From contig NZ_CP084931.1 of the NCBI RefSeq assembly GCF_023822065.1, forward strand, positions 372,001 to 436,000: a DNA stretch of 64,000 nucleotides. The letters run 5' to 3'. Positions 18,244-44,783 of this stretch are shown in pieces. Origin of the DNA: Sphingomonas morindae. Its GTDB lineage: Bacteria > Pseudomonadota > Alphaproteobacteria > Sphingomonadales > Sphingomonadaceae. Each line of letters begins with the position of its first letter. Position 1 is the first letter of the stretch. Under the pieces are notes generated by a model. That model was not told the origin of the DNA, did not search any database, and saw nothing but the letters and a program-made list of their open reading frames with translations. The translations under genes were made by a program, and so were the position numbers.

Positions 18244-18252
18244 GCCGGCTCA
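18241..18252. repeat. 12-bp palindrome joining the stop codons of two convergent genes
   Basis: TGAGCCGGCTCA is perfectly self-complementary. Its first three bases are the stop of the glycosyltransferase-methyltransferase gene and its last three, read on the other strand, are the stop of the GH27 gene. It continues into a further GAGCCGG copy. There is no T-run. Confidence 0.5.
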
Positions 18253-19593: not shown

Positions 19594-20630
19594 TAATCCA
19601 CCGCCTCGGGCCAGCCATCGGCGGTCCAGCGCACCGGCGAGATGCGCAGCGTCGGCGCCCCGTGCGCCGCCTTGTCATAGGCGTGGTAGACCAGATAGTC
19701 GCGGCCATCGGCATCGTGCAGAAAGCCGTTATGCCCCGGCCCGCGGAAGCGCTGCTGCTCGCGCAAATCGCCGCGCAGTATCACGGTGCCTCCGCCCTCC
19801 AGCATGCGGCTGCCATCCTTGCCGAGATAGGGCCCGGTCACAAGGCGCGCGCGGCCGACCACGGTGTAATAGGTGCTGTTCACGCCCTTGCAGCAATAAT
19901 CATAGGAGGCGAACAGATAATAATAGTCGCCATGCCGGATCAGGAACGGCGCCTCGATCGGATCGGGCGCGCCCGCCGGCACCGGACGCCGCGCCAGCGC
20001 GATCGGCGGCGCGGCCGGATCGCGCGGCTTGCCGGTCTGACCATCGAGCGCGAACAGCTTGATGCCCGACCAGAAACTGCCGAGCGCCAGCCAGTGGCGT
20101 CCCGAAGCGTCCTCGATATGCGCGGGATCGATGGCGTTGAAATCGTCCGCCGGGGTGGATTGCACCGCCAGCCCCTCGTCGCGCCAGCCATAGCCGGGCT
20201 TGGCGGGATCGAGCGTGGGGCTGGTCATCAGACCGATCGCGGAGCGGTTCGAACCGAAGCTCGAAACGGCATAATAGAGGTGCCAGCGGCCATTCCAGAA
20301 GGAGAGGTCGGGCGCCCACATGCTCTTGGCGTCGGGAATGGCGCGCACCGCCCAGCCGGGCAGCGTGACCGCCGGCGGCGCTACCGTCCAGCGGCGCAGA
20401 TCGGGCGAGCGCCGGCCCGACAGGATCTGCCCGCCGGCGCCGCCCAGGCCGGTGCCGAACACATAATAAGTGGAGCCCTCGCGCACCAGCACGGGATCGT
20501 GAACGGGCGCGATCGCGCCGCTGAGCACGCTGTTGATCGGGCCGCTCTCGGCGGGCCCGGCAAGCGCGGGCGCCGCCGCCGCCGCGAGCAACGCCGCCAG
20601 CCCCGCGCCCCTGCGGATCGCGCCCGCCAC
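19593..20630 (-). CDS. Glycoside hydrolase family 43 arabinanase-type enzyme
   Basis: A 345-residue exported GH43 five-bladed propeller enzyme. After a signal peptide (GLAALLAAAAAPALAG) the three catalytic acids are visible: the base in PVHDPVLVR (Asp45), the pKa modulator in NAIDPAHIED (Asp168) and the acid in PIEAPFLI (Glu226). The spacing and the APDLSFWNGRWHLYY and DYYYLFASYDYCCKG segments resemble endo-1,5-alpha-L-arabinanases rather than beta-xylosidases. It would cut the alpha-1,5 arabinan backbone, feeding oligosaccharides to the TBDR encoded just upstream. Its start lies two bases after the TBDR stop region and its stop overlaps the GH27 start, so the three genes form one tight operon. 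No arabinose catabolic or transport gene is in the window. Confidence 0.9.
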   Translation of the reverse strand: MAGAIRRGAGLAALLAAAAAPALAGPAESGPINSVLSGAIAPVHDPVLVREGSTYYVFGTGLGGAGGQILSGRRSPDLRRWTVAPPAVTLPGWAVRAIPDAKSMWAPDLSFWNGRWHLYYAVSSFGSNRSAIGLMTSPTLDPAKPGYGWRDEGLAVQSTPADDFNAIDPAHIEDASGRHWLALGSFWSGIKLFALDGQTGKPRDPAAPPIALARRPVPAGAPDPIEAPFLIRHGDYYYLFASYDYCCKGVNSTYYTVVGRARLVTGPYLGKDGSRMLEGGGTVILRGDLREQQRFRGPGHNGFLHDADGRDYLVYHAYDKAAHGAPTLRISPVRWTADGWPEAVD

Positions 20631-20632
20631 GA

Positions 20633-25399: not shown

Positions 25400-27277
25400 A
25401 TGTGGCGGGCGGTTGAAACGGGCGGACGGTGGGGCCGCTGGCTGGCGGCGGCCGCGCTGCTCGTCGCGCTGGTGCTGCTGCTCGTGGCGGCGCTGCCCTG
25501 GGGGCTGGTCGCGCGCCATGCCGACCGGCCGCTGGCGGCGGTGCTCGGCCGATCGGTGGAGATTGGCGGCGCGCGCCGGATCGACTGGCTGTCGCTCACG
25601 CCCAGCATCGCCTTCACCAATGTGCGCATCGGCCAGGCCGAGGGCGACGGCCGCGCGCCGCTGGCGGTGATCGACCATGCGACGCTGCGCGTGGCGGCGC
25701 TACCGCTGCTGATCGGCCAGGTCCGCCCCCGCGCGCTCGAGCTGGACGGCGTGCGGGTGCATCTGGTGCGCGATGCGCAGGGCCGGACCAATTGGCGGCG
25801 GCCGGGCAAGGCGGGCGGCGGAGGCGGCGCGCCCGCCATCGGCCGCGTGACGGTACGCGCGATGCGCGTTCGGCTCGACGATGCGCGGCGCGGCCTCGTC
25901 CTGCTCGCCCGCGTCTCGGCGGATGCGACGGGCGTCGCGGTGCGCGGCCGCGGCACGCTGCGCGGCGCGCCGCTAGGTCTCGCGCTCCGCGCCGCGCCGC
26001 TCGATGGCGGAAACGCGCCCTGGCCGGCCCGGATCGCGCTGCGCTCGTCGCGCGCCACGATCGATGCGGCGCTGCGCCTCGATCATCCGCTCGATACCGG
26101 CCATTTCGACGCGCGGCTCGCCGCCGCCGGCCCGGACCTGCACGCGATCGACGATATATTCGAGATCGGCCTGTTCCACACGCAGCCGGTGCGGCTCACC
26201 GCGCGGCTGCGGCATGACGCACCGGCGTGGCGCATCGCGCATCTGGAGGCGCGGCTGGGCCGCACCGCGCTCGAGGCGGCGCTGCGCGTCACCCGCCCCC
26301 AGGGCCGGACCCGGCTGGAGGGCGAAGTCACCGCCACCACGCTCGATTTCGACGATTTCGCCTCGGACGCGCAACGCGCGCGCGGCGCCGCCGAGCAGGC
26401 GCGGATCGGCCCGCGCGTCGTGCCCGATACGCGCATTGTTCTCGCCCGGCTGCATTTCGATGGCGTGCTGCGGGTGCGCGCGCACCGCCTTCTGGGGGCG
26501 CCCGACAGCCCGTTCCGCAGCCTCGCCGCCACCGCCACGCTCGACGATCGGCGGCTGACGCTGGCGCCGCTCGCGATCGGCCTGCCGCACGGCGGCATCA
26601 CCGGGCGGGCGCTGGTCGACCATCGCGGGCCGTCACCCAGGCTCGCGCTCGCGCTCCGGCTCGCGGGCGGCCGGGTCGAGGATATGCTGCCGCACCAGCA
26701 GGCGGTGCGCGGTCCGCTGCGCGCGGTGCTGCGGGTGAATGGCACCGGCGAGACGGTGCGGGCGGCGCTGGCGCGCGGCACCGGCCTGTTCGGCTTCGCG
26801 GTGGAACAGGGCCAGATCGATCGCGCCTATGCGACCTTTCTCGGCGGCGATGTTCTGAAGGGGTTGGGCGCGGCGATCGGCGGCGGCGGCGCGGCGGCGG
26901 CGCTGCCCTGTCTGGTCGGCCGGTTTCCGATCCGGGCCGGGCTGATGACCGCGCAGCCGCTGCTCGTCGCCACCGGCGTGTCGCGCGGCGATGGCGCGGG
27001 CACGATCCGGCTCGGGCCGGAAACGCTCGCGCTGCGCGTCCAGGGTCGCCCGGTGCGGCCGGGGCTGCTGCTCTCCACCGCGCCCGTGCGGCTGACGGGC
27101 ACGCTGTCGCAGCCGCATCTCGATATCCGCCCGCCCCGGGCCGAGGGCGCTAAGAAGACCGGACTGCTCGATCGCGTCGGCTTCTTCCTCAAGAAGCTGC
27201 GGCTGCGCGGCGATGCGGGCGCGCCGCCGGCGGCGCCGGTGAACTGCCCGGCCGAGGCGACGCGCGCCCTATCCTGA
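25400..27277 (+). CDS. AsmA-family inner-membrane-anchored protein
   Basis: A 625-residue protein with one N-terminal transmembrane helix (WLAAAALLVALVLLLVAALPWGL, about 15-37) and a long periplasmic beta-rich domain. The N-terminal segment ADRPLAAVLGRSVEIGGARRIDW and the LELDGVRVHLVRDAQGRTNWR repeat unit are typical of the AsmA N-terminal domain, and the AsmA-like C-terminal region includes RGTGLFGFAVEQGQIDRAYA. Family members are bridge-like or chaperone-like proteins that move phospholipids or help assemble outer-membrane components. Start ATG at 25400 is close to AGGGGAGG. The stop overlaps by nine bases the convergent stop of the GH9 gene. No partner genes nearby. Confidence 0.88.
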   Translation: MWRAVETGGRWGRWLAAAALLVALVLLLVAALPWGLVARHADRPLAAVLGRSVEIGGARRIDWLSLTPSIAFTNVRIGQAEGDGRAPLAVIDHATLRVAALPLLIGQVRPRALELDGVRVHLVRDAQGRTNWRRPGKAGGGGGAPAIGRVTVRAMRVRLDDARRGLVLLARVSADATGVAVRGRGTLRGAPLGLALRAAPLDGGNAPWPARIALRSSRATIDAALRLDHPLDTGHFDARLAAAGPDLHAIDDIFEIGLFHTQPVRLTARLRHDAPAWRIAHLEARLGRTALEAALRVTRPQGRTRLEGEVTATTLDFDDFASDAQRARGAAEQARIGPRVVPDTRIVLARLHFDGVLRVRAHRLLGAPDSPFRSLAATATLDDRRLTLAPLAIGLPHGGITGRALVDHRGPSPRLALALRLAGGRVEDMLPHQQAVRGPLRAVLRVNGTGETVRAALARGTGLFGFAVEQGQIDRAYATFLGGDVLKGLGAAIGGGGAAAALPCLVGRFPIRAGLMTAQPLLVATGVSRGDGAGTIRLGPETLALRVQGRPVRPGLLLSTAPVRLTGTLSQPHLDIRPPRAEGAKKTGLLDRVGFFLKKLRLRGDAGAPPAAPVNCPAEATRALS

Positions 27278-29767
27278 CGGCTTGTGCGCGTAGAGCTGCC
27301 GCGCGGCCAGCACCAGGAACATATAGTTGGTCTCGCCGCCGCCCAGCACATATTCGGTCTGTTGCCAGAAATAGGGCCAGACCTTGAGCTCGGGGAGATC
27401 CGGCCGGATCAGCGCGGTGCCGGACACCACGCCGCCGGGCACATAGCTCCAATCGGCCCGGTTGAAGCCATAGGCGGTCGTCACCGAGCGCGCGCCGACC
27501 CCGCTGGCGAAGGCGGCGGTGTTGCTGCCGGGATGCACGCCCAGCACGAAATCCAGCGCACGCACGAAGCGGCTGGTGGGCACCAGCTGCGGCCAGGCCT
27601 TGTGCAGCAGCCATTGCTGCACGCCGAATTCCTGGATCGTCCAGCCCGCGCCCCAGATATCGGGCTTGTAGGGGACGCCATAAGGGCTGTCCGCTCGCGC
27701 GGCCTTGTCCAGCCCCGCCTCATAGGTGGCGACGGCGGCGGTCACATCGGCGCGGAAGCCGGCATCGTCGATCCGGGAGAAGACCGGGGCGAGCATCCAG
27801 CCCGTGTCCGCGATCGCGTTGACGATACGCGGCTTGAGCGCCACCAGCCGCTGGAGATAGGGCTTTTCGCCCGTGGTGGCGGCGAGTTCGGCGAGCGCGA
27901 AGACGCGCGGGCCGATCTCGTCCGTCCGGTCGATCGCGCGATCGAACAGCGTGCGCGCCGTGGCGAGCGCATCGGCCGCCACGGCGGGGCTCGATGCGCG
28001 CAGCACCCGCGCCACCGTGGCGAGCTGCGCCGCGACGGTCAGCTCGCGCGCGGGATTGTCCTCGGTGAAGACGAGCCGGTCGTCGGCGCGGATCGCCACG
28101 CCATTGTTGAGCGTGCCCAGCCCCGGCACCGGCTTGCCGACGATATTGTCGGTCGCGTTGGCGGCCTCGCCGAGCAGCGTATATTGCGCGAGCGTGGCAT
28201 CCTGGATGCCGCGATAGAGCCGGCCCATGGCATGGTAGCCGCCCAGCACCGAGAGCAGGCCATGCTCGATCTGCTGCACGGCATCGTTGCGGCCGTCGGG
28301 CTGGTGGATCAGCACGCGCTTGTGCGTCTCGTCGATCGTGGTCGCGTCATAATCGAGGCCGAATTCCTCGATCATCTTCGCCAGCAGCCACACCGTGCCC
28401 ATCTGCGATTCGATGCGCAGATCATAATCGCCGGCATCGTGCCAGCCGCCGGCATCCAGCCCCGGCACATGATCGAGCGGCTTGAACCGAGTGAGCGTGC
28501 TCGGCCCCTGCGCATAGCCATCGAAATGGTTGAGGTTCACCGGCGCCATCAGCGCATCGTCGACATGGTCGAGCCCGTGCCAGACCCGGTATTTCTCCTC
28601 CACCCGCATGTGGCACATCTGGATCGGCAGGAAATAGTCCAGCGTCGGCTGCCACACGCCGCGATCATAGATATCCGCGCCGATCCGGAACGGCTCGGAC
28701 AGCGCGCCGCGATAGCGGATGCGGTAGAGGCCGGGCTCGCGCACGCTGGAGAAATCCCAGGTGGCATAGCCGTAGCGCAGGAAGCGGCCCCAGGCCGCAG
28801 GCGCGCCGCTCTCCACCGGCTGCGGGCCGTCGGCGGTGATCCGCAGCAGCTGCACGGGATCGAACCGGGTATCGGCGGCGTCCTGCTCGATCACCAGCGT
28901 CTTGGGCTGGTCCGGCGCATAGCCGACCTGCGACACCTGGAGCACCGGCGGCGATGTCCAGCCGGGCACGACATGGGGCGTGATCGTCCATTCGATCGCG
29001 TTCTTGGTGGCACCGGCGGGGACCAGCTCGCGCACCACGAACCAGCCGTTATTGACCGTGCCGCGCGCATCGATCAGCCGCAGCGCGCCGGTCTGGCTGG
29101 TGATGCCCAGCCGCTGGAGATCCGTTTCGGGCGCGACCGTCAGGCTGTGCCCGGTGGCGAGCGGGGCGGCGATGGTGGCGCCCTGATCGGCCGTCATCGG
29201 CCCGCTCGGCTGCCGCGCGAACACGCCGGCCGTCTTGTCCATCAGCCAGGTCTTGCCGAACAGATCGCCGGGGAACAGCTCCAGGTTGAAGCCGAGCTTG
29301 CCGACATAGCGGGCCGGCAGCGGCTGATCGAGATCGACGCGCACATGCACGCTGTCGCCCGGGCCGGGCGTGACGGTGACGCTGTAGCCGAGCTTGAGAT
29401 CGGGATAGACGATCGGGTTGAAGCCGGTCCGATCCTTGGCGGGATCGGGGAAGGAGAGATGGCGGCTGATGCTGTTGTGCGCGGGATCGACGAGGCGCGC
29501 GCCCGTCGCCGGCATCGGCGACCATTGCCCCGGCGCCGCCTCCAGCCGCAGATCGCCATTGGCGGCGACGCGCACGCCATGCTGGATGATCGTCACCCCG
29601 GTCTGGTGGCCATCGGGATAATAGTCGCTGAACGCCATCACGTTCAGCCCGGGCTCGGCGAGATAGCCGGCGGGATCGAGCCGCAGGCCGGGGCCGGCCG
29701 CCAGCGCCTGGCCGGCCAGGGCGAGGAGCGCGGCGCCGCTCAGCGCGGCGACATGGCCGCGCTTCAT
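27269..29767 (-). CDS. Glycoside hydrolase family 9 enzyme, secreted (copy 1)
   Basis: An 832-residue exported GH9 protein. Signal peptide (HVAALSGAALLALAGQALA), then about 245 residues of an N-terminal domain that I do not recognise, an Ig-like cellulase N-terminal domain (about 272-365, starting PPVLQVSQVGYAPDQPK), and the (alpha/alpha)6 catalytic domain. The catalytic aspartates are in GGWHDAGDYD (Asp444, Asp447), the conserved histidine region is VLGVHPGSNT, and the acid Glu is in QQTEYVL (about 805). GH9 enzymes invert beta-1,4 glucan or, in some groups, cut beta-glucosamine or xyloglucan-type links. The ATG overlaps the halogenase-like gene stop by ATGA, so the two are translationally coupled, downstream of a TBDR. 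A second full GH9 gene lies 7.6 kb away. Confidence 0.88.
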   Translation of the reverse strand: MKRGHVAALSGAALLALAGQALAAGPGLRLDPAGYLAEPGLNVMAFSDYYPDGHQTGVTIIQHGVRVAANGDLRLEAAPGQWSPMPATGARLVDPAHNSISRHLSFPDPAKDRTGFNPIVYPDLKLGYSVTVTPGPGDSVHVRVDLDQPLPARYVGKLGFNLELFPGDLFGKTWLMDKTAGVFARQPSGPMTADQGATIAAPLATGHSLTVAPETDLQRLGITSQTGALRLIDARGTVNNGWFVVRELVPAGATKNAIEWTITPHVVPGWTSPPVLQVSQVGYAPDQPKTLVIEQDAADTRFDPVQLLRITADGPQPVESGAPAAWGRFLRYGYATWDFSSVREPGLYRIRYRGALSEPFRIGADIYDRGVWQPTLDYFLPIQMCHMRVEEKYRVWHGLDHVDDALMAPVNLNHFDGYAQGPSTLTRFKPLDHVPGLDAGGWHDAGDYDLRIESQMGTVWLLAKMIEEFGLDYDATTIDETHKRVLIHQPDGRNDAVQQIEHGLLSVLGGYHAMGRLYRGIQDATLAQYTLLGEAANATDNIVGKPVPGLGTLNNGVAIRADDRLVFTEDNPARELTVAAQLATVARVLRASSPAVAADALATARTLFDRAIDRTDEIGPRVFALAELAATTGEKPYLQRLVALKPRIVNAIADTGWMLAPVFSRIDDAGFRADVTAAVATYEAGLDKAARADSPYGVPYKPDIWGAGWTIQEFGVQQWLLHKAWPQLVPTSRFVRALDFVLGVHPGSNTAAFASGVGARSVTTAYGFNRADWSYVPGGVVSGTALIRPDLPELKVWPYFWQQTEYVLGGGETNYMFLVLAARQLYAHKPSG

Positions 29768-31317
29768 ACCGCCTGCATGCCGTGCGTGTGGATCTTGCGC
29801 AGCAGATCGCGGTTGCGCGGCAGCTGCTGCCGCATCGAGCGCGTCGCCGCCTGGTTCTCGCGCACCATCCGCGCCGCGATGCGCGCGCCATCCGCCATGT
29901 CGAGCGGATCGACCTCGGTGCGGAAGCCCATGCCATAGAGCACATATTGATAGGAGGCGGCGGGAAAGACTTCTTCCAGCCGGTCGAACTCGTCGAAGAA
30001 CCAGGGCGATTGGTGCCGCCACAGGGTGAGCAGATCGCGCAGGCGCGGCGGGATCGTGTCGGGATCGACATTGTCGCGCCAGAAGGCGGTGTCGGTGCGC
30101 TTGGTCAGCACATAATGGAGCTTGAGGAAGTCGATGATCCGGCCCCAGCGATAGCGCGTCACCTCGTTGAAGCGGCGCGAGACGATGTCCATCACGCCGC
30201 GCGTCGCCGGCATCTGCTCGGCGATCAGCTTGGCGGACAGCTCGATCAGCACGATCGCCGAGGCTTCGAGCGGCTCGAGAAAGCCCGCCGCCAGTCCGAC
30301 GGCGACGCAGTTGCGCTGCCAGAAGGTCTCGCGATGGCCCGAGCGGATCGGGATGCGGCGGATCGCCAGATCCTGGTGCTTGGGCCCGATATAGGCGCGC
30401 AGCTCGGCCTCGGCGCTGTCCGGATCGCTGTGCCGGCTGGAATAGACATAGCCGACCCCGCGCCGCGTCGGCAGGCCGATATCCCAGATCCAGCCCGATT
30501 TCTGCGCGGTGGAGATGGTGTGCGAGGCGATCGGATCGTCCGGCGTGTCATAGGGCAGCTGCACCGCGAGCGCGGTGTCGCAGAACAGCACGTCGCTGCA
30601 ATCGCGGAACGGCACGCCCAGCGTCTCGCCCAGGAGCAGCGCCTTGAAGCCGGTGCAGTCGACAAAGAGATCGCCCGCGATGCGGCCGGCCTGTTCGGTG
30701 TGGACGGCGGCGATATCGCCATCCTCGCGCTGCTCGACCGAGCGCACATCGGCCAGGATGTGGCGCACGCCCAGCACTTCGGTGCAATGCTCGCGCAGGA
30801 AGGTGGCGAATTTGCCGGCATCGAGATGATAGGCGTAGTTGGCCACCGCATCATATTCGCGCGTGGCGATCGTCTTGGGCGCGAGGCCCTCGTCGCACAG
30901 CACGCCCTGCGGGCACACCGTGTCGCAGAAGCTCGATCCCGGCGCCGCCGCGCCCGCCAGCCAGTGCGGCACGAGATTGAGCTGGGTGAAGCCCTGCGGC
31001 ATCATCAGCGGGTGGTAATAGGCGTCGTCCGCGGCGCCCGTCGTCCATTTGGCGAACTTGGCGCCCTGCTTGAACGCGGCATCGCAGCGGCGGAAGAATT
31101 CCGTCTCGGAGACGCCCATCTTTTCCAGCGTCGAGCGCAGCGTGGGCCAGGTGCCCTCGCCCACGCCGATGATCGGCACATTGGGGCTTTCCACCAAGGT
31201 GACCGAGAAGCGGCCGGCGGCGATCCGGCCCTTGTGACGGGCGGCGATGATCCCCGCCGCCAGCCATCCGGCGGTTCCCCCGCCCACGATCACCACGTCG
31301 CGTACCGCAGCGCTCAC
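29764..31317 (-). CDS. Tryptophan-halogenase-family flavoprotein in a glycan-uptake locus
   Basis: A 517-residue flavin-dependent halogenase-family protein: FAD-binding VVIVGGGTAGWLAAGI at 8-23, the PNVPIIGVGEGTWPTL segment, and the lysine of FRRCDAAFKQGAKF (Lys83) at the place of the active-site lysine that carries hypohalous acid in PrnA/RebH. The glutamate-containing GFLEPLEASAI is also kept. The W-x-W-x-I-P signature is changed: GWIWDIGLPTRRG has Gly where Pro is expected. This sub-group is repeatedly found with TBDRs, SapC and cupin-like genes in Caulobacterales, Sphingomonadales and Xanthomonads, where its substrate is unknown; tryptophan is unlikely. No flavin reductase gene is adjacent. 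It lies between a TBDR (91 bases upstream) and the GH9 gene (ATGA overlap). Confidence 0.88.
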   Translation of the reverse strand: MSAAVRDVVIVGGGTAGWLAAGIIAARHKGRIAAGRFSVTLVESPNVPIIGVGEGTWPTLRSTLEKMGVSETEFFRRCDAAFKQGAKFAKWTTGAADDAYYHPLMMPQGFTQLNLVPHWLAGAAAPGSSFCDTVCPQGVLCDEGLAPKTIATREYDAVANYAYHLDAGKFATFLREHCTEVLGVRHILADVRSVEQREDGDIAAVHTEQAGRIAGDLFVDCTGFKALLLGETLGVPFRDCSDVLFCDTALAVQLPYDTPDDPIASHTISTAQKSGWIWDIGLPTRRGVGYVYSSRHSDPDSAEAELRAYIGPKHQDLAIRRIPIRSGHRETFWQRNCVAVGLAAGFLEPLEASAIVLIELSAKLIAEQMPATRGVMDIVSRRFNEVTRYRWGRIIDFLKLHYVLTKRTDTAFWRDNVDPDTIPPRLRDLLTLWRHQSPWFFDEFDRLEEVFPAASYQYVLYGMGFRTEVDPLDMADGARIAARMVRENQAATRSMRQQLPRNRDLLRKIHTHGMQAV

Positions 31318-31408
31318 GCTGAAACTCTCCGAGAAGCTATTGTTATACAGCTAGTATCCCGCAACGGGCGGGAATCGTCCAGTACGATCCCCGCCCGTCC
31401 GCCCCGGC

Positions 31409-34400
31409 TCAGAGCCGGAAGTGCGCGCCCACCGTGAAGCGGCGGCCATAGCGGAAGGCATCCAGCAGCTGGTTGCTGTACCGGCCATGGGTGCTCAGCG
31501 TTTCATCGTTGAGGTTGAGAGCCTCGAAGAAGACGCTGATCTGCTTGTTGATGTCATAGCTGGTCGAGAAGTCGACCTGGGTGCTGGCATTGACGAAGGT
31601 CGGCTCGGTCCCGAAGGCCGAGTTGTTCTGCGTCTGACCGAACCGGTCCAGATACTCGTCGCGCCAGTTGACCGCGACGCGCGCCTGGAAGCCATGCTTG
31701 TCGTAGAAGCCGACGAAGTTCGCCGAATTGGCCAGACCCGTGACGGCGAAGCCGCTGATCGAGATGTCCGACGGATCATACTTCTTGTTGGTGCCGACGA
31801 AGGTGGCGTTGGCGGTGAAGCCGAAGCCGGTATCGGCGAAGACATGCTGCACCGCGAGCTCGACGCCCTTGATCACCGCCGACGGGCCATTGACCTGCTG
31901 GGTGACGGTGAAGGACGCCGCCGCGCCGGTGGTGGGATCGACCACGCCGTTGATCGCCTGGCGGGTGGAGCCGCCGACCACGAAATTGGTCACGCGCTTC
32001 ACGAAGAAGTCCACCGAGGCATAGGAGTTGCGGCGGTAATACCATTCCGCGCCGACGTCGAAATTGTCGGCGAGATAGGGATTGAGCCGCGGATTGCCGC
32101 CGGTGGCGACCAGCGCGCCGACCCGCTGCGTGTTGGGCACGTTGAGCACGGGCGTCAGCACGTTGAGCGCCGGCCGGGTGAGCGTGCGCGAGGCGTCGAA
32201 GCGCAGCTTCAACTTGTCGGTCACGTTCAGGCCGAGATCGAGGTTGGGCAGCAGATAGCTGTAGGTGTGGGTGGTGGACACCGGCGTGGTGCCGGTGAAG
32301 CTCACCAGGAAGGCGGTGAGATCGCCCGTCTGGACGGTCAGGCCGGTCGGCAGCTGGCCGAGGCCCTCGGACGTGACCTTGGTCACTTCCTCGCGCAGAC
32401 CCGCATTGATGTGGAACGGCATGTCGCCGATCTTGGTCTCCTGGTGCAGGGTCAGATAGCCCGACCAGACGCGCTCGGTGATCTTCTGGAAGCTCGCCGG
32501 GTTCAGCACCGAGTCGTAGGTGCCGGTGAAGCCGTTGACCGAGCCGTAATTATAGCCGGGGATATTCTGCGTCTGCGGATTGCCCAGGCCCTTGATGTAG
32601 TTCAGCACGGCATAGGGATCGAACACCAGGACCCGCGGCGGCAGCGCGCCCGCACCCGAGAAGCCCGGGATGAAGTTGGCGGTGCTGAAGCTGTTGGTGA
32701 AGAGGTTCTGCGGCAGCGCCAGGCCGGTGGCCGAGCCGCTGGCCGGACCATAGCCCGAATAAGCCTGCCAGAAATTGTTGGTGAAGGTGTCGTAGTTGGA
32801 GAGCTGGAACTGATCGCGCACATATTGCGCGCCGATCCGGATCTTCAGATCATCGCCATTATAGGCCGCCTCGAACTTGGCCTGATCCACCGTATCCTTG
32901 TTGCGCTGGCTGGTGATCGGCACGACGTGCGAGCCGATGATGCCGTTGCCGAGGAAGTTGGCGGAGTCGCCCGCCGGGCCATAGCCGGTCGGCGCCGGAA
33001 TGGAGTTGGTGCCGATGTTGGTGAGGCCGACCGAGGTCGCGTTCGGGCCGCCATAGCCGACATCGACGTCGAGGCTGCTGAACTGGCCCCCCGGATTGAG
33101 CCAGGAGCGCGCATGGCTGCCATCGAAGTTCAGGCTGACGCGATCGCTGACGTCCCACTTCAGATTGCCGCCCAGCTGGTTGTTCTGGAGAACCTGCTGG
33201 TTGATCTGGCCCTGGAAGTCGGTCGGCGAGGCCGGCTGGGTGAAGCTGGTGACGGTGCCGTTCTTGTCGAAGGTGATGTCGCGCAGATTGCTCTGGTTGA
33301 ACCAGACGCTGTAGCCCGACTGGTCGGCGCGGATCTTCTGGCGCGAGAAATTGTCGTCGATCGTCAGCAGCACCGCTTCGGACGGCTTCCACTGCAGCGC
33401 GATGCGCCCGTCGATGCGGGTGTCCTTGGTGTCCTCGCGATAGATGCCGTAATCCTGGGAGTAGAAGCCCGGGATGGTCTTGTTCGCGTCGGTGAGCTGG
33501 GCGTCGGTGCAGGTCGCGGTCTGCTGGCAGGGCGCGAAGAAGGCGCCGTTCCAGCCCTGGTTGTTGATGTGGTTCGTCTGGGTCTTGTGCTGGGTGTAGA
33601 TGACGTCCGCCAGCACGCCGATGGTGTCGTCGGCGAAGGTGTCGCTCAGCAGCAGGCCGCCAGCCGGCGCCGCCTTGCCCGCCCCATCGTTGATCGAGCC
33701 CGAGGCCGAGGCCGCCAGGCGGAAGCCCGGATGATCGAACGGCTTGGGGAACTTGATGTTGATGGTGGCGCCGATGGCGCCGGCGGCGAGGCCGGCATCG
33801 GGCGTCTTCAGGATGTCGAGTTCGCCGACGAAATCGGCGCCGACGGTGCTGAAGTCGAAGCCGCGGCTGCTGGTGCCGCTCGAGATCGGGCGGCCGTCAT
33901 AAAGGGTTTCGTTGAAGGCGGGGCCGAAGCCGCGCACGGTGATGGCCACCGCGTCGCCGGTCGTGCCGGGCAGGCCGCCCAGGCTGCTGGTGCCGCGGCT
34001 GACCGAGACGCCGGGCACGCGCTGGAGCGCGGCGGCGACGTTCGAATCGGGGAATTTGCCGATATCCTCGGCCGAAATGGCATCGACGATGCCCGGCGAG
34101 GCGCGCTTGATGTCCATGTTGCGCTGGAGCGATCCGCGCAGACCGGTGACGATGATCTCCTGGCTGCCGGTGCCGTTGGTGACATTGCCGGCGCCATTCA
34201 CCTCATTGTCGTTGTGCGTGCCCGCGACCGGATTGGTCTCCGGCGCCTTGGGCGCGGACGAGGCCTGGGCCGAGGTGCTGTCGGTGGCGGCGCCGCCATC
34301 GACGGGCGCGACATTGGTGGTGGTGGGCGGCGCGGCCTGGATGGCGGCATCGCTGGCCGGCGCCTGGGCGCGCGCGCCGGCGCCGATCACCGCGAGGCCG

Positions 34401-34480
34401 GACACGCCGACCATGAGGGCCGTGCGCGCGAGCGCCCCGGCCGGACGACGCATTCCATTCGATTTAGTGTAAAGCGACAT
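31409..34480 (-). CDS. TonB-dependent receptor, GH9/halogenase locus
   Basis: A 1023-residue receptor. The signal region is MRRPAGALARTALMVGVSGLAVIGAGARAQ; a long Ala/Thr-rich linker follows; the plug begins near residue 108 with QEIIVTGLRGSLQRNMD and holds DSNVAAALQRVPGVSVSRGT and IKFPKPF; the barrel ends FGRRFTVGAHFRL with a C-terminal hydrophobic strand ending Leu. There is no STN domain. It belongs to the large sugar-type sphingomonad TBDRs. The ATG at 34480 follows GGGGAGAG; a frame extending to 34513 has no better start. It leads an operon with the halogenase-like and GH9 genes, suggesting import of oligosaccharides released by GH9. The promoter probably overlaps the LacI-type operator at 34711-34724. 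Confidence 0.93.
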   Translation of the reverse strand: MSLYTKSNGMRRPAGALARTALMVGVSGLAVIGAGARAQAPASDAAIQAAPPTTTNVAPVDGGAATDSTSAQASSAPKAPETNPVAGTHNDNEVNGAGNVTNGTGSQEIIVTGLRGSLQRNMDIKRASPGIVDAISAEDIGKFPDSNVAAALQRVPGVSVSRGTSSLGGLPGTTGDAVAITVRGFGPAFNETLYDGRPISSGTSSRGFDFSTVGADFVGELDILKTPDAGLAAGAIGATINIKFPKPFDHPGFRLAASASGSINDGAGKAAPAGGLLLSDTFADDTIGVLADVIYTQHKTQTNHINNQGWNGAFFAPCQQTATCTDAQLTDANKTIPGFYSQDYGIYREDTKDTRIDGRIALQWKPSEAVLLTIDDNFSRQKIRADQSGYSVWFNQSNLRDITFDKNGTVTSFTQPASPTDFQGQINQQVLQNNQLGGNLKWDVSDRVSLNFDGSHARSWLNPGGQFSSLDVDVGYGGPNATSVGLTNIGTNSIPAPTGYGPAGDSANFLGNGIIGSHVVPITSQRNKDTVDQAKFEAAYNGDDLKIRIGAQYVRDQFQLSNYDTFTNNFWQAYSGYGPASGSATGLALPQNLFTNSFSTANFIPGFSGAGALPPRVLVFDPYAVLNYIKGLGNPQTQNIPGYNYGSVNGFTGTYDSVLNPASFQKITERVWSGYLTLHQETKIGDMPFHINAGLREEVTKVTSEGLGQLPTGLTVQTGDLTAFLVSFTGTTPVSTTHTYSYLLPNLDLGLNVTDKLKLRFDASRTLTRPALNVLTPVLNVPNTQRVGALVATGGNPRLNPYLADNFDVGAEWYYRRNSYASVDFFVKRVTNFVVGGSTRQAINGVVDPTTGAAASFTVTQQVNGPSAVIKGVELAVQHVFADTGFGFTANATFVGTNKKYDPSDISISGFAVTGLANSANFVGFYDKHGFQARVAVNWRDEYLDRFGQTQNNSAFGTEPTFVNASTQVDFSTSYDINKQISVFFEALNLNDETLSTHGRYSNQLLDAFRYGRRFTVGAHFRL

Positions 34481-34549
34481 TATGGCTCTCCCCGTGTGCC
34501 GTCTCGCGAGCACACGCCACCGACCGCTCCCGCGCCCGTATCGCGCAGT

Positions 34550-34577
34550 GCGTATACTTTATCGGCAGGCGCATACT
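34550..34577. repeat. Direct repeat GCGTATACT / GCGCATACT upstream of the TBDR
   Basis: Two nine-base copies with one difference (34550-34558 and 34569-34577), spaced 19 bases start to start, close to two helical turns. They lie 70-97 bases upstream of the TBDR start, in its expected leader. Direct repeats at this spacing can bind a dimeric activator, but this is only a suggestion. Confidence 0.3.
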
Positions 34578-34710
34578 CTCCAGCCTCAACTCCCCCTTTT
34601 CGAGGTAAATTGAGGCGGCCTTCTGCTTTTGCTTGCTAAACCCCGAGCATCCCCCTTTGACGGTGTAGCTCTTCTCCCGTCTTGCTTGCGATTCTTGAAT
34701 TAGCCGAGCC

Positions 34711-34724
34711 GGTTAGCGCTATCA
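34711..34724. promoter_or_regulatory. LacI-family operator candidate
   Basis: GGTTAGCGCTATCA matches the LacI/GalR-family consensus TGNNANCGNTNNCA at all defined positions but the first. The core TAGCGCTA is a perfect 8-bp palindrome with the central CG typical of this family. It sits between the divergent TBDR-halogenase-GH9 and SapC-cupin genes, so one repressor could control both. No lacI-type gene is in the window. Confidence 0.6.
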
Positions 34725-34753
34725 ATAGCAATCAGCAAAATGGGGGAAATATT

Positions 34754-34782
34754 TTGACAAGGCTGTCGTCAGTCGATTGTAT
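34754..34782 (+). promoter_or_regulatory. Promoter candidate for the SapC-cupin operon
   Basis: A perfect TTGACA at 34754-34759 is followed after 17 bases by TTGTAT at 34777-34782, 71 bases upstream of the SapC start. The -35 is strong and the -10 weak. The LacI-type operator lies 30 bases upstream of the -35. Confidence 0.45.
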
Positions 34783-34853
34783 CGCGCAACGGACCGCCGG
34801 CGCGGCGGCGAGATCGGCCGCATGACAGGGCGGCCAAGGAGAGGAAGACGGGC

Positions 34854-35543
34854 ATGGCGCGGGTAGAGTTGCTGGATCCAAAAGTCCATGGCGAGCTGCG
34901 TTACGACGCGCGCCGCGCCGCGCGCGAAAACCGCGATCGTTTCGTCCAGATCGCGCCAATCGAGTTTCCGCTCGTCGCGGTCCGGTATCCGATATTCCTT
35001 AGCAAGGATGCCGAGACGGGCGGCTTCTATTTCGGTGCGATGCTCGGCATCGATCCCGATGAAAATCTGTACGCCGGCGATGATGCGATCGCCGCGCCCT
35101 ACCGCCCGCTGCAACTCCAGCGCCTGCCCTTTTTCCTCGCCGCCGAAGGGCTGGCCGCCGATCTGGAAAATCCGTATCTTTCAGAAACGGGACCGGGCGA
35201 AACCCTGTTTGATTTCACCGGCGAATATAGCGACTATCTGCAAACGGTACGAACCGCTCTGGTTGCGTTGCATAACGGAATGGATAGTGGCCGCGCGCTC
35301 GCCAGGACGCTGCTTGAGCATGATCTGGTCGAATCGGTCGAGATCGAGCTGAGCTTCGATGATGGCAGCACGCGCACGCTGGAGGGCCTGTACAGCGTGT
35401 CGCGCGACAGCCTCTCGGCGCTCCCCGATACTGTCGTCACCAGCCTGTTCCGTTCGGGCGATCTCGAGCGCATCCATCTGCTGCTCGCGTCGCTCAAGTG
35501 CGTGCCGATGGTGGCCGCGCGGAAAAATGCGCGGTTGGGCTGA
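34854..35543 (+). CDS. SapC-family protein
   Basis: A 229-residue soluble protein of the SapC family (name from the Campylobacter S-layer locus). Hallmarks: HGELRYDARRAARENRDRFV near the start, FPLVAVRYPIFLSKD, TGGFYFGAMLGIDPDENLY, and the conserved RLPFFLAAE. The C-terminal half contains a helical, Asp/Glu-rich segment and the conserved LYSVSRDSLSALPD. There is no signal peptide. Its biochemical role is unknown; in alphaproteobacteria and xanthomonads it is regularly encoded with a halogenase-like flavoprotein, a cupin-like protein and a TBDR, as here. The ATG follows AGGAGAGG. The cupin gene starts three bases after its stop, so both are on one transcript. Confidence 0.88.
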   Translation: MARVELLDPKVHGELRYDARRAARENRDRFVQIAPIEFPLVAVRYPIFLSKDAETGGFYFGAMLGIDPDENLYAGDDAIAAPYRPLQLQRLPFFLAAEGLAADLENPYLSETGPGETLFDFTGEYSDYLQTVRTALVALHNGMDSGRALARTLLEHDLVESVEIELSFDDGSTRTLEGLYSVSRDSLSALPDTVVTSLFRSGDLERIHLLLASLKCVPMVAARKNARLG

Positions 35544-35546
35544 GCC

Positions 35547-36545
35547 ATGGCGGCGCTGATCGAGGCGCGCGACGGCGCCGGGCTCGACGCCGCCGGCTTC
35601 GATGCGATCGCCGCCGCCTGCCGGCCGGTGGTGCTGCGCGGCCTGGTGCGGCACTGGCCGCTGGTGGCCGCGGCCGAAACACCGCACGGGCTCGCCGCCT
35701 ATGTCGACCGCTATGACAGCGGCGGCATGGTCGAGGCCTTTGTCGGCGATCCCGCCATCGCGGGCCGCTATTTTTATGGCGACACGCTCGACGGCTTCAA
35801 TTTCGAGCGCCAGCGGATGACGCTGCGCGAGGCGGTGGCGGCACTGGCGGCGCCACGCACGCCCGGCGTGCCCAGCCTCTATATCGGCTCGCTGCCGATC
35901 GACGCCTATCTGCCCGGGCTGGCCGAGCAGGTGCGCGTCCCGCCCCGCCCCGGGCTCACCGGCGGGCGGCTGTGGATCGGGCATGAATCGCTCGTCTCCA
36001 CCCATCACGACATGCTGGACAATCTCGCCTGCGTGGTGGCGGGGCGGCGGCGCTTCACTCTGTACCCGCCCGAGCTGATCGGCGATCTCTATGTCGGCCC
36101 GCTCGATCGCACCATGGCGGGCCAACCGGTCAGCCTCGCCGCCTCGGCGCCGCCGGGCGATCCGCGCTATCCGCGCTTCGCCGCCGTGGCGGATCAGGCG
36201 CTGGTCGCCGAACTCGAGCCGGGCGACGCGCTCTATATGCCCAAGCTCTGGTGGCATCAGGTCGAAGGGCTCGCCCCGTTCAACGCGCTGCTCAATTTCT
36301 GGTGGGACGGGTTCGCAGCGGGCGGCGATCCGCCCTTCGCCTCGGTCCTGCTGGCGATGATCAGCATCGCCGAGCGCCCGCCGGGGGAACGCGCGGCGTG
36401 GCGCGCGCTGTTCGATCATTATGTCTTCCGGCCGGACCGCCATCCGCTCGAGCATCTGCCGGCCGCCGATCATGGCGTGCTCGGCCCGCTGCGGCAGACC
36501 TATGGCCGGCTGCGCGCGCAGGTGATGCGGATGCTGCGGGGCTGA
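35547..36545 (+). CDS. Cupin-like (JmjC-type) iron/2-oxoglutarate dioxygenase
   Basis: A 332-residue cupin_8/JmjC-type protein. The iron facial triad is visible: the H-x-D at STHHDMLDNL (His153/Asp155) and the distal histidine at LWWHQVEGL (His237). RPVVLRGLVRHWPLV near the start and RRRFTLYPPE are the family signatures. Such enzymes hydroxylate amino-acid side chains of proteins or small molecules using Fe(II), oxygen and 2-oxoglutarate; the target is unknown. The gene follows SapC by three bases and ends seven bases from the convergent MarR gene. Presence with SapC, a halogenase-like flavoprotein and a TBDR is a recurring association. Confidence 0.87.
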   Translation: MAALIEARDGAGLDAAGFDAIAAACRPVVLRGLVRHWPLVAAAETPHGLAAYVDRYDSGGMVEAFVGDPAIAGRYFYGDTLDGFNFERQRMTLREAVAALAAPRTPGVPSLYIGSLPIDAYLPGLAEQVRVPPRPGLTGGRLWIGHESLVSTHHDMLDNLACVVAGRRRFTLYPPELIGDLYVGPLDRTMAGQPVSLAASAPPGDPRYPRFAAVADQALVAELEPGDALYMPKLWWHQVEGLAPFNALLNFWWDGFAAGGDPPFASVLLAMISIAERPPGERAAWRALFDHYVFRPDRHPLEHLPAADHGVLGPLRQTYGRLRAQVMRMLRG

Positions 36546-37351: not shown

Positions 37352-39859
37352 TTACCGGGCGGCGCCCGCGCCCGGTGCGGCGGCCGGCGTCTGGGTGAGG
37401 CTGATCGCCGCGTTGGCGGCCAGGATATAGGCGGAGGTGGTGCTCACCGTATATTCATTCTCGAACCACAGGAACGGCCAGTCGGTCTTGAGTTCGGGGA
37501 AATCGGGCTTGATCACGATCACGCCCGGCACCATTCCGCCCGGAATGAAGCTGTAATCGGCCCGATTATGACCATAGCCGATCAGTTTGGACTGGGTGCC
37601 GACGGTGGAGACGAGCGACAGCGCGTTGGCCGGGTGCCGTCCCAGGATATAATCGAGCGCGTTGAGCGTGTAGTCCGGGCCGACAATGTCCGGGAAGGCC
37701 GTGTGCAGCATGTACATGGCGGTCGCGAAGGTGGCGACCTGGTTGGAGCCTGCCCAGCTGCCCAGGCTGATCGGCACGCCAAAGGGATTGGCGGCGAGAT
37801 CGCGATCCACCTTCTCCTTCACCGCGCGCGCCAGCGGCGCCAGCGCCGCGCGATACTCGGCGCCCATGAAGGGCAAGGCGCGCACCGCCGCCGCGCCCAC
37901 CCAGTCGAAATGCTTGGCCACCACGGGCATCAGCGCGGTCAGCCGGCGCGTGTAGAGCGGCTCGCCCTTGGTGGCGAGGATCAGCTCCACCGTTGCCATC
38001 ACATCGGCGACATCGGGCGCGCGCGGCGCGAAGGCATTGTCGCGCGCGGCCGCGCTGTCCACCAGCCGATCCTGCTGCTTGGCCCAGAGCGTGCGCGCGG
38101 CGGCGAGCGCCTCCTCGGCCATGGCGGGATCGCTGGCGCGCAGCGCGCGGCTCGCGCCCGCCAGCGCGCCCGCGACATAGAGATCATTGGCCGGAAGATC
38201 GGTGGTGAAGGCCCAGCGATCGTCGGGCTTGCCCGAGCGATCGCCGCTTACCGCATTGGCCGGCAGCGACGGATCGTAGAGCCGGCCATCGGTTTGCGAG
38301 CCGGCGTCGCCCAGATGCGCATATTGCCGCTGCACCGGATCGATGATGCCGACAATGGCGTGGCCGAACACCTTGTACTGGGCGAGCAGCTGGAGCGTGC
38401 CGTGGCGGATCTGCTGGATCGCGTCGGGCACGCCGTCGGGCTTGCGGATCTCCACCGCCCGCGCCGCCTCGTCCACGCTGGTCTCGTCCCAATCGAGCCC
38501 GAACATCTCGCGCGCCCAGACGAGATCGCGCACCACCCAGGCATTGTCCGGGGTCTGGATGTCGTAATCGCCGGCATCCTGCCAGCCGCCCACCGCGAGG
38601 CCGGGAATATGCTCGCCCGCCTTGAACGGCGAATCCAGCGAAGGCCCCATCTTATAGCCGTCGAAATGGATGTGGTTGGGCGGCGCCTGGCGCGCATCGT
38701 CGAGATGCGAGGGCGATTGCCAGACGCGGTACTGCTCGCGCACGCCGACATGATCCATCTGCTCGGCGAGGAAGCTGTCGAGCGATGTCTGCCAGATATG
38801 GGCATAGGCATCGGCGGCGATGCGGAACGGCGCCGTGGTGGTGGCGCCATAGCGGATCGCATAGATGCCGGGCGCGCGCACGCTCGAGAAATCGAAGGCG
38901 GCATAATCGTAGCGCATCCACCGGCCGCGCGGCTGCACGCGGGCGCGCAGCACCGGCTGACGGCTGCCATCCGCCGCAAGCCGCACCAGCTCCGCCTCGG
39001 CGGGCGCCTTGTCGTTCGGATCGCTCTCGATCAGCGCCACCTTGGCGCGATCGGGTGTATAGCCCGCCTGATTGTAGGAGACGACCGGGGGCCGCACCCA
39101 GCCGGGGATGCGATGCGGGCGCACGTGCCACACCACGGCATTGTCCTTGGCGCCGGCCTCGATCAGCGAGCGGACCACGAACCAGCCATTCTGCGCGCGC
39201 GCCCGCGCATCGTAGAGCGCCAGCGGCGCGGCGTCCGAGGTGATGGTGACGCGCGTCGCCGGATCCTCGGGGGCGAGCGTGATGCTGTGGCCGCCCGCCG
39301 CCAGCGGCAGCGGATCGCCCGATCCGTCCTTGGCCATCGGGCCGGTCGGGTGGCGCGGGAACAGGCCGGGCGCGTCGTCTAGCAGATAGGTCTTGCCGAA
39401 ATAGGCGGTCGGCAGGAAATCGAGGTTGAAGCCGGCCTTGCCCGCAAGCGCCGGCGGCAGCGGCGCATCGAGATCGACCGCGATGCGGAACCCCTCGCCC
39501 TCGGCCGTCACCGTCACCTTGTAGCCGAGCTTCTCCTCCTTGAAGGCCGAGCGCACCACGATCTGGTCGGGCGCCGCGCCGAGCGTGCGGCTGACGAAGA
39601 GCGGCACCGGGCTCCATTGTTCGGGGGTGGGGCTCAGCCGCAAAGCGCCGTCGGTGGCGATGCGATCGCCGTGCAGCACCATCTGGATGCCGGCATTCTT
39701 CTCGTCGAAGAAGATCGGGCTGAACTGGTTCTGATCGACGATCACGCTGAGGCCCGGCGCCTCGAGCGTCTGCGCCGGGCCGAGCCGGAGCGCGGCGGCC
39801 TGCGCCTGCGCCGAGATCATGCACCCCGCCAGCAATACCGCAACCAACGTCCTGCGCAT
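37352..39859 (-). CDS. Glycoside hydrolase family 9 enzyme, secreted (copy 2)
   Basis: An 835-residue exported GH9 enzyme with the same plan as the one at 27269-29767: signal peptide MRRTLVAVLLAGCMISAQAQA, a ~240-residue N-terminal domain, the Ig-like domain (from about PPVVSYNQAGYTPDRAK), then the catalytic domain with GGWQDAGDYD, ILGRHPANA and FENEYTVS carrying the acid Glu. The two copies are clearly diverged, so this is an old paralogue pair rather than a recent duplication. It may act on a different linkage. It is alone in its transcription unit. An inverted repeat CTTTC-ccga-GAAAG at 39953-39966 lies upstream. A TTG at 39865 would add two residues; the ATG at 39859 has GGGAGG seven bases upstream and is preferred. 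Confidence 0.87.
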   Translation of the reverse strand: MRRTLVAVLLAGCMISAQAQAAALRLGPAQTLEAPGLSVIVDQNQFSPIFFDEKNAGIQMVLHGDRIATDGALRLSPTPEQWSPVPLFVSRTLGAAPDQIVVRSAFKEEKLGYKVTVTAEGEGFRIAVDLDAPLPPALAGKAGFNLDFLPTAYFGKTYLLDDAPGLFPRHPTGPMAKDGSGDPLPLAAGGHSITLAPEDPATRVTITSDAAPLALYDARARAQNGWFVVRSLIEAGAKDNAVVWHVRPHRIPGWVRPPVVSYNQAGYTPDRAKVALIESDPNDKAPAEAELVRLAADGSRQPVLRARVQPRGRWMRYDYAAFDFSSVRAPGIYAIRYGATTTAPFRIAADAYAHIWQTSLDSFLAEQMDHVGVREQYRVWQSPSHLDDARQAPPNHIHFDGYKMGPSLDSPFKAGEHIPGLAVGGWQDAGDYDIQTPDNAWVVRDLVWAREMFGLDWDETSVDEAARAVEIRKPDGVPDAIQQIRHGTLQLLAQYKVFGHAIVGIIDPVQRQYAHLGDAGSQTDGRLYDPSLPANAVSGDRSGKPDDRWAFTTDLPANDLYVAGALAGASRALRASDPAMAEEALAAARTLWAKQQDRLVDSAAARDNAFAPRAPDVADVMATVELILATKGEPLYTRRLTALMPVVAKHFDWVGAAAVRALPFMGAEYRAALAPLARAVKEKVDRDLAANPFGVPISLGSWAGSNQVATFATAMYMLHTAFPDIVGPDYTLNALDYILGRHPANALSLVSTVGTQSKLIGYGHNRADYSFIPGGMVPGVIVIKPDFPELKTDWPFLWFENEYTVSTTSAYILAANAAISLTQTPAAAPGAGAAR

Positions 39860-44500: not shown

Positions 44501-44702
44501 CTATCCGAATGTCTTCTACCATGATATCCGGGCCACGGTGCAGGTGGACCGGCGCTTCAGCCTGTATGGCGGCGTCGACAATGCCACCGATCGCAAGCCG
44601 CCCTTCGGGCTGCTCGGCAATGCAACGGGCTATAATAACTTCGATACGATCTACGACAATGTCGGCCGCTTCTTCTATGTGGGCGCGCGCGTGAAGATCT
44701 GA
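41517..44702 (+). CDS. TonB-dependent receptor, esterase locus
   Basis: A 1061-residue receptor. Signal peptide ARLIVAALPLVLPVVVHAQ, a Pro/Ala/Gln linker, and a plug beginning about residue 80 with DQEIIVTGSHIARPTLRSP and containing LDLRSLGQSRTLVLVNGHRH and YGSDAMAGVVNFVLKQNFDG. The barrel ends in RFFYVGARVKI. No STN domain. The plug group differs from the other sugar-type receptors here: the LRSPIPVTTLSAADL start belongs to a branch with wide substrate range. Its cargo is unknown; the convergent esterases suggest an esterified ligand. The ATG at 41517 follows GGGAG. Confidence 0.92.
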   Translation: MLRFRSSFGRRARLIVAALPLVLPVVVHAQAPAPDPQSLDAPAPAAPAGTTPTQSTPGVAAGITGPAVQQQQAETSGRDQEIIVTGSHIARPTLRSPIPVTTLSAADLTRSGNTNLGDALVRLPALSTSFNQAGSTAFIGTSGLNILDLRSLGQSRTLVLVNGHRHITSQEGEFLVDINTIPNDLVDRVDVVTGGSSAAYGSDAMAGVVNFVLKQNFDGLSANAQGGVSSHHDRGNYKLSVTAGKNFAEGRGNIAGSFEYDSSSLVTYADRPGLTGAFAGRRQFQLVDDPTADNTNPDRVFLQGVRSLGYADGGNFTAYNGSSIRSCAGAPSTACLPNGFPRIFLFNSDGSLREANYGTDFRPVGSGNTLGGDGSTLNNTGTLQPSYKRYIANILGHFDVSEAFRPYFEGKFVRTQSFNQGTPTFSQGGDQGLDADGIPFAPTNYLSYTPIALDNAFLTPQARSVISGLLPAGANYFNLNRNNVDLGTRDEADRRDTWRVVVGAQGTFNDDWHYDVAFNYGHLKTRSTFYNNRIEQNFYNSIDAVRNAAGDIVCRINQASVTDPACAPIDLLGAFGSQQTAAQRQAALDYFNTTSYRRGAASELDITANITGDSSQLFELPGGPVRFSIGGEYRREKAHYAYDELVSSGQTFLNAIPDFRPPAFAVKEAYGELDLPVLKNIRFVDELSLNGAVRVSDFKGSAGTVYAYNAGGIYAPVSDVRFRVNYSRSVRAPTLGDLYASNSINYAGVDDPCDVNFINKGSSTRAANCAAAGVPAGFENAVTRSSRLQILSGGNPDLQVEKSRSWTYGVILQPRMIPGLVVTVDYYDIKINQVISSVDAQTILNGCYDAASLSNAFCSLINPRNGDGSFQQPALLQSSLNFAAERAKGIDLDVAYNHRFGADDNLALRFIGNWNRFRTDYPYVDDPSRPSPVKGTLGQPAFQFNANADYTHKKVTIGYTLRFLGKQSIASYETQHVVAGLDGTPYDPYYADRVNYPNVFYHDIRATVQVDRRFSLYGGVDNATDRKPPFGLLGNATGYNNFDTIYDNVGRFFYVGARVKI

Positions 44703-44722
44703 CGCGCGCACCCCCGCGCCAC

Positions 44723-44753
44723 GCCGCCCGCTCCGATCGGGGGTGGGCGGCGC
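44723..44753. terminator. Possible bidirectional terminator between TBDR and carboxylesterase genes
   Basis: CGCCGCCC ... GGGCGGCG is a perfect 8-bp inverted repeat with a 15-base loop that itself contains CCGATCGG. It lies 20 bases after the TBDR stop, between convergent genes. No T-run follows, so it is a candidate only. Confidence 0.35.
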
Positions 44754-44783
44754 GGCCGGGGACCCGCCATCGGCCGCGCCGGA

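Follow-up and report, generated by a model that had tools for sequence, protein, structure and literature searches.

The window analyzed here is a stretch of 64,000 nucleotides of Sphingomonas morindae (NCBI RefSeq assembly GCF_023822065.1, contig NZ_CP084931.1, positions 372,001 to 436,000 of the forward strand). It contains a divergent locus in which the genes for a glycoside hydrolase of family 9 (GH9), a flavin enzyme of the PF04820 family and a TonB-dependent receptor of the TIGR01782 subfamily lie on the minus strand, facing the genes for SapC and a Cupin_8/JmjC protein on the plus strand. This arrangement, proposed in a first-pass annotation of the sequence, was confirmed by Pfam and NCBIfam scans. 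PF04820 genes were split into two types, FDH-A (2pyx-like), to which the enzyme in the window belongs, and FDH-B. The features of the locus are the following.

27269-29767, minus strand: GH9-like glycoside hydrolase, 832 amino acids (PF00759, 35.1 bits, cut-off 27.7; CelD_N PF02927, 28.6 bits, cut-off 24.6)
29764-31317, minus strand: FDH-A, PF04820 flavin enzyme (415.7 bits, profile positions 1-451 of 458)
31409-34480, minus strand: TonB-dependent receptor (TIGR01782, 575 bits, above the subfamily cut-off of 310)
32759-32761, minus strand: codon of receptor residue Tyr552, a position that is Trp in 49/72 FDH-B-linked receptors
33302-33304, minus strand: codon of receptor residue Trp371 (motif YSVWFN), proposed target of FDH-A/SapC from residue correlation and the receptor model
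33854-33856, minus strand: codon of receptor plug residue Asp187, proposed target of the JmjC protein from residue correlation
34481-34853, intergenic: 373 bases separating the divergent starts of the receptor and SapC genes
34854-35543, plus strand: SapC, 229 amino acids (PF07277, 148.3 bits, above the cut-off of 28.9)
35547-36545, plus strand: Cupin_8/JmjC 2-oxoglutarate oxygenase, 332 amino acids (PF13621, 204.8 bits)

The FDH-A and GH9 genes overlap by 4 bases, and 3 bases separate SapC from Cupin_8. The start of the receptor was set at the ATG at 34480, chosen by reading the N-terminus; residue numbers refer to a 1001-amino-acid gene model starting at 34414, and 22 is added to them for the ATG at 34480. 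Neither a consensus sigma-70 site nor a terminator was found in the intergenic region. By inspection, the N-termini of GH9 and of the receptor are signal-peptide-like, and no such sequence was seen in FDH-A, SapC or the JmjC protein; in FDH-A, there is no space for one ahead of the flavin adenine dinucleotide (FAD) motif. The GH9 gene lies downstream of the receptor and FDH-A on the same strand, which gives the combination of TonB receptor and glycosidase by which carbohydrate-utilization (CUT) loci are recognized. The source genome as a whole has three SapC, four PF04820 and one Cupin_8. Of the four PF04820 genes, three adjoin a gene for a receptor, and a single gene separates the remaining one from such a neighbor. 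One further SapC (locus L008) is divergent from a receptor; for the third (L007), the receptor hidden Markov model (HMM) found no receptor within approximately 10 kb on either side.

The association of these genes extends well beyond this genome. An FDH-A alignment search of named genomes was followed through its best 80 of 571 relatives, which span Sphingomonadales, Caulobacter, Alteromonadales, Cellvibrionales, Lysobacter, Duganella, and others, and neighbors were identified by six-frame HMM searches within 7 kb. Of these 80 loci, 79 have SapC near FDH-A, 77 a receptor, 47 Cupin_8, and 16 FDH-B; the sole locus without SapC is a 3.1-kb contig, and the pairing of SapC with FDH-A is not due to chance. 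FDH-A, SapC and a TIGR01782-type receptor thus form a conserved unit, often accompanied by Cupin_8 and FDH-B, and the gene association on which the first-pass annotation had rested its proposal of an undescribed system is strongly conserved across genomes. SapC itself has a wider distribution. It occurs in 67 of 118 genomes of the order, and local gene calls in 96 regions around SapC matches, the loci of the source genome and the window yielded 93 SapC genes, which were classed by their neighbors within five genes (the gene caller missed some SapC, e.g., that of L076). Twenty-five of them lie with a receptor, FDH and Cupin_8, eight with a receptor and FDH, three with a receptor (two being fusions), and one with FDH; one lies with a receptor and a FAD-linked oxidase family (c7, named by Pfam from one scanned member), 28 with this oxidase family, eight and six in two other contexts, and 13 in none.

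Among PDB sequences, the FDH-A of the window is closest to 2pyx, followed by 9ltb and 9lu2, with matches over its full length. It carries the motifs GGGTAGW, GVGEGTWP, FK....F..W, and FLEPLEAS, and has WxWxIG in place of WxWxIP, the typical motif of PF04820 flavin-dependent halogenases. The FK....F..W-type lysine motif and the EPLE motif, which would correspond to the catalytic residues K79 and E346 of PrnA, are kept in 103/103 FDH-A sequences, a few of which are duplicates. WxWxIP was found in none of these 103 (93 have WxWxIG) vs. 41/47 FDH-B, and because it is never found in FDH-A, this enzyme might, judging from its motifs, hydroxylate instead of halogenate. One FDH-B (L041) has 6y1w, 9luq and 6frl as its nearest PDB sequences. 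SapC-linked receptor loci with two halogenases have one FDH-A and one FDH-B, and loci without SapC can carry two FDH-B. On a Pseudoalteromonas megaplasmid (L340, 8028-9522, plus strand), FDH-B appears split into two pieces that overlap and lie in different frames, and the gene table of the record does not list it.

Single reading frames that join FDH-A to a shortened SapC core were found at L125 (8080-10083, 667 amino acids) and L126 (8275-10239, 654 amino acids); both fusions adjoin receptors and lack the central SapC segment (approximately model positions 72-143), and they point to a physical partnership between SapC and FDH-A. The AF2 model of SapC is of high quality (predicted local distance difference test, pLDDT, 96.7; predicted template modeling score, pTM, 0.90), and neither Foldseek nor VIA-align returned a PDB match for it, a result that does not by itself prove a new fold. 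In addition, in five other members of the phylum (G236, G208, G224, G228, and G197), SapC matches lie inside open frames of approximately 480-660 amino acids, which are possible further fusions, frame length alone not being a demonstration of fusion. At L007 (8976-11831, minus strand), SapC stands away from receptors, flanked by a FAD-linked oxidase (PF02913/PF01565) on one side and a cytochrome b561 (PF01292) on the other, and it may serve another flavoenzyme there. As for the JmjC protein, its iron triad (H153-x-D155...H237) is kept in 74/74 aligned sequences, and its nearest PDB sequences are FIH (E 2e-11), JMJD5, and JMJD7, all of which are protein hydroxylases.

Receptors that adjoin the module were compared with TIGR01782 receptors without it. 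In an alignment of 116 linked and 21 unlinked receptors, which improved on a first quick one, Trp371 was the most discriminating column (112/116 vs. 1/21), and it was invariant among 49 receptors 27-61% identical to that of the window. A larger set of 165 receptors was then freshly aligned, with a six-frame check of neighbors within 5.5 kb. Trp371 was present in 111 of the 113 receptors with SapC/FDH-A vs. four of the 52 others, and its column was Trp in 2/25 receptors with FDH-B and without SapC/FDH-A and in 2/27 unlinked ones. Trp552 was found in 49 of 72 FDH-B-linked receptors vs. seven of 93 others. Among linked receptors, Asp187 was present in 67/69 with Cupin_8 vs. 4/44 without. The counts by enzyme content of the locus are the following.

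FDH-A, SapC (n = 33): Trp371 32, Trp552 4, Asp187 3
FDH-A, SapC, Cupin_8 (n = 30): Trp371 30, Trp552 1, Asp187 28
FDH-A, FDH-B, SapC, Cupin_8 (n = 24): Trp371 24, Trp552 21, Asp187 24
FDH-B, SapC, Cupin_8 (n = 15): Trp371 14, Trp552 15, Asp187 15
FDH-A, FDH-B, SapC (n = 8): Trp371 8, Trp552 0, Asp187 0
FDH-A only (n = 2): Trp371 2, Trp552 1, Asp187 0
SapC only (n = 1): Trp371 1, Trp552 0, Asp187 1
FDH-B only (n = 21): Trp371 2, Trp552 9, Asp187 1
FDH-B, Cupin_8 (n = 4): Trp371 0, Trp552 4, Asp187 0
No module enzyme (n = 27): Trp371 2, Trp552 1, Asp187 5

The receptor of the window, whose locus has FDH-A, SapC and Cupin_8 and no FDH-B, carries Trp371, Asp187 and Tyr552, as this pattern predicts. 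At four loci (L309, L313, L320, and L328), Cupin_8 adjoins pairs of FDH-B without SapC; their receptors have Trp552 in 4/4 cases and Trp371 and Asp187 in 0/4.

Whether these correlations go beyond shared descent was examined in several ways. A weighted scan of all columns and residues put Trp552 at the top for FDH-B (difference 0.58, next column 0.41) and, in linked receptors, Asp187 at the top for Cupin_8. In receptors that have neither SapC nor FDH-A, Trp552 was outside the top ten columns for FDH-B. Traits of matched prevalence and number of changes were also simulated along the tree of receptors (1000 simulations each). In none of the 1000 simulations did a Trp column do as well as Trp371. 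Trp columns that matched Trp552 appeared in 35/1000, and in 9/1000 a Trp column both ranked first and was at least equal to Trp552; for Cupin_8, an Asp/Asn column as good as Asp187 arose in 29/1000 and was also the top column in 7/1000, the choice of Asp/Asn resting on the action of FIH and having been made after Asp187 had been seen. In the tree, the linked receptors form a main clade and a second one apart from it; Trp371 occurs in both, and a single joint clade was rejected (approximately unbiased test, p 0.001; quick tree of 75 rows). The AF2 model of the receptor (pLDDT 88.5) matches solved TonB receptors. In its secondary structure, Trp371 (fragment residue 296) is the last residue of strand 273-296, and because this long strand follows a two-residue turn, Trp371 should, according to the model, be at the extracellular tip. 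Position 552 (fragment residue 477) is in a long loop after strand 448-467, and Asp187 (fragment residue 112) in a plug loop.

Further receptors were examined after the idea about Trp371 had arisen, although some of their loci had been fetched earlier. Trp371 was absent from all receptors with FDH-B and without SapC/FDH-A (0/7 in one set and, after one non-partner was dropped, 0/17 in another) and from those without any FDH (0/6 over the cut-off and 0/4 below it), and it was present in the two FDH-A-linked receptors (2/2). The last set comprised 16 loci, eight of them usable; of the remainder, five had SapC but lacked a receptor (a weak FDH-like match was seen in one of them), two had an intermediate FDH and no match to the receptor HMM (the record of L342 annotates a TonB receptor), and one (L341) had its sole receptor 4 kb away, with a weak score. 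Under the rule that SapC or FDH-A predicts Trp371, this residue was found in 5/6 linked receptors (L333, L335, L336, L339, and L340), and in 4/4 with SapC. Trp552 was absent from the receptors without FDH-B (0/3), and Asp187 was present in the single receptor with Cupin_8 (1/1).

By comparison, the glycosidases around the module vary widely. Module neighbors of at least 380 amino acids were scanned (77 proteins, no more than two per locus, covering 44 of the 80 loci, with the last loci of the list left out), and they match 66 Pfam families; the 25 families listed include GH3, GH27-type melibiase, sialate esterase, arabinofuranosidase, GH43, GH115, GH95, and sugar transporters. A locus of the second receptor clade (L065) carries GH20, and at plasmid loci an annotated agarase, beta-galactosidase and alpha-galactosidase adjoin TonB receptor-FDH-SapC operons. 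A relative of the GH9 of the window lies within 7 kb of FDH-A in only 7 of the best 80 loci. GH9 in particular is thus an incidental, variable cargo; because the adjoining glycosidases vary between loci, the module follows the receptor and not one glycan. A second GH9 gene adjoins the locus (37352-39820, minus strand; PF00759, 61.4 bits, CelD_N).

The best single explanation, which we advance tentatively and at somewhat less than an even chance, is that this locus serves glycan uptake and encodes, together with its receptor, the enzymes that modify that receptor. It draws on the constancy of SapC and the receptor at FDH-A loci, the fusions, the tracking of residues, the simulations, and the presence of Trp371 in two receptor clades, as well as on the later test sets, the varying glycosidases, the signal-peptide-free enzymes, the precedent of QhpG (see below), and the proximity of the JmjC protein to protein hydroxylases. 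In the cytoplasm, SapC would bind the newly made receptor precursor and present Trp371, in an extracellular loop, to the flavin enzyme, which would halogenate or hydroxylate it before Sec export. FDH-B, where present, would act on a second loop tryptophan, at position 552, and hydroxylation of Asp187, in the plug, would fall to the JmjC protein. These modified residues would be on the ligand-facing side and could tune glycan capture or plug gating, and GH9 would cut the imported glycan in the periplasm. The more specific proposal that a dedicated, co-encoded set modifies the nutrient receptor (SapC as adaptor, FDH-A for the loop Trp, FDH-B for the other Trp, JmjC for the plug Asp), so that locus content predicts the modified residues, is a possibility that we hold more tentatively still. 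The first-pass annotation had suggested oxidative modification of a surface protein, a receptor or a glycan; the residue-enzyme correlations and the fusions support, indirectly, the receptor or a surface protein, whereas a glycan fits less well with 66 families among 77 neighbors of a constant module.

Several points weigh against receptor modification, which itself was not observed. Trp371 ranked only sixth in the first quick alignment and second, behind Gly108, for SapC/FDH-A in the weighted scan, and its assignment depends on the alignment for a few rows. Despite the presence of SapC, it is replaced by Phe in L076 and Tyr in L100. Trp552 is missing from 23 of 72 FDH-B-linked receptors, including all eight with FDH-A, FDH-B and SapC, and in the last test set it was found in only 2/5 receptors with FDH-B. 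In that same set, Trp371 was absent from L337, where SapC is lacking and the FDH falls between the two types; of the two receptors without SapC/FDH-A (L343 and L344), one (L343) had Trp371, and Asp187 was found in 1/5 linked receptors without Cupin_8. More generally, the correlations are structured by clade, no independent-pair test reached significance, and the residue columns had been picked from the data before the simulations. Finally, an FDH-A alignment search of ten genomes gave no FDH-A-grade match in five of them (G005, G019, G025, G056, and G108), and these five keep Trp371 at loci with SapC, Cupin_8 and FDH-B (L114, L107, L110, L074, and L109), although L100, the locus with Tyr at position 371, is a second locus of this kind in G056. 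The enzyme that would act on Trp371 is therefore not fixed. Trp371 thus tracks SapC no less closely than it tracks FDH-A, and this suggests SapC as the specificity factor.

In an alternative explanation, the flavin enzyme, SapC and the JmjC protein would act on a small aromatic or glycan-linked molecule entering through the receptor, with the Trp and Asp being ligand-binding residues that mark the class of ligand. Characterized PF04820 members mostly halogenate free tryptophan and other small molecules, and the residues are on the predicted ligand side, where ligand binding alone could conserve them. BrvH, for its part, brominates indole (excerpted text of PMC5945002). Nevertheless, the adjoining glycosidases differ by locus, and it would be left unexplained why both flavin enzymes are associated with Trp and the JmjC protein with Asp; we consider this alternative rather unlikely. 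A lower probability is given to the idea that the substrate of the enzymes is a different protein in the uptake pathway (a client bound by SapC, a regulator, or a protein of the surface), with the receptor residues marking only lineage. The clade structure of the receptor traits would agree with it, as would the name of SapC, which comes from the S-layer locus of Campylobacter fetus, and the occurrence of SapC away from receptors, 28/93 being near the FAD-linked oxidase family. Yet no family other than the receptor, near FDH-A in 77/80 loci, looked as constant in the maps by eye, and Trp371 is common to two separate receptor lineages. Ordinary co-regulation, in which a glycan locus happens to include redox enzymes without a common biochemical task, appears very improbable: it would be compatible with the variable gene order and with the 33/80 loci in which Cupin_8 was not found, but not readily with the near-obligate pairing of FDH-A and SapC across classes or with two fusions.

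If correct, modification of the receptor by its own enzymes would represent a new class of protein modification, with a modified tryptophan at the ligand face of a receptor, and a new way of equipping a nutrient receptor. It would also provide a function for SapC and a rule leading from gene content to modified residue. The natural substrates of the many receptor-linked halogenase-like genes in Proteobacteria have apparently not been reported.

The window contains other receptor genes. At 18250-23374 (minus strand) lies another glycan-uptake group, with a TIGR01782 receptor, GH43 and an alpha-galactosidase, and none of the FDH, SapC and Cupin_8 matches of the source genome is located there. 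At 60210-63999 (plus strand) and in L005, an extracytoplasmic function (ECF)-type sigma factor, a FecR protein and a TonB receptor are encoded; past the end of the window, these genes are followed by one for a 670-amino-acid protein without a Pfam match and then by an FDH-B gene, and the group is a regulated receptor-halogenase locus of another type. At 41571-47341, a TonB receptor gene is convergent with genes for a carboxylesterase and a putative esterase.

With the PF04820 tryptophan halogenases PrnA, RebH and BrvH, FDH-A shares the FAD, lysine and EPLE motifs; unlike them, it is linked to SapC and a receptor and not to a biosynthetic cluster, and it is without WxWxIP. As described in the excerpted text on BrvH, this enzyme has low activity on indole, its natural substrate is unknown, it has space for larger substrates, and a second halogenase gene adjoins brvH (PMC5945002). 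QhpG, the peptidyl-tryptophan dihydroxylase of quinohemoprotein amine dehydrogenase, provides the precedent for action on a protein: it is a halogenase-like flavoprotein that dihydroxylates a Trp inside a protein (excerpted text of PMC7876137), although the NCBIfam equivalog model of QhpG scores FDH-A at 31.4, against a cut-off of 240. The JmjC protein has sequence similarity and the iron triad in common with FIH, JMJD5 and JMJD7; it differs in being a bacterial Cupin_8 protein, for which a protein substrate is suggested by sequence similarity. The words halogenase, SapC, Pass1, and cupin do not occur in the text of the CUT-locus paper (PMC1790865), nor do halogenase or SapC in that of a 2024 receptor review (PMC11658791). 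Like the MalA and NagA TonB receptors of Caulobacter and the CUT loci of Xanthomonas, relatives of the module combine a glycan receptor with nearby glycosidases, sugar transporters and LacI-type regulators.

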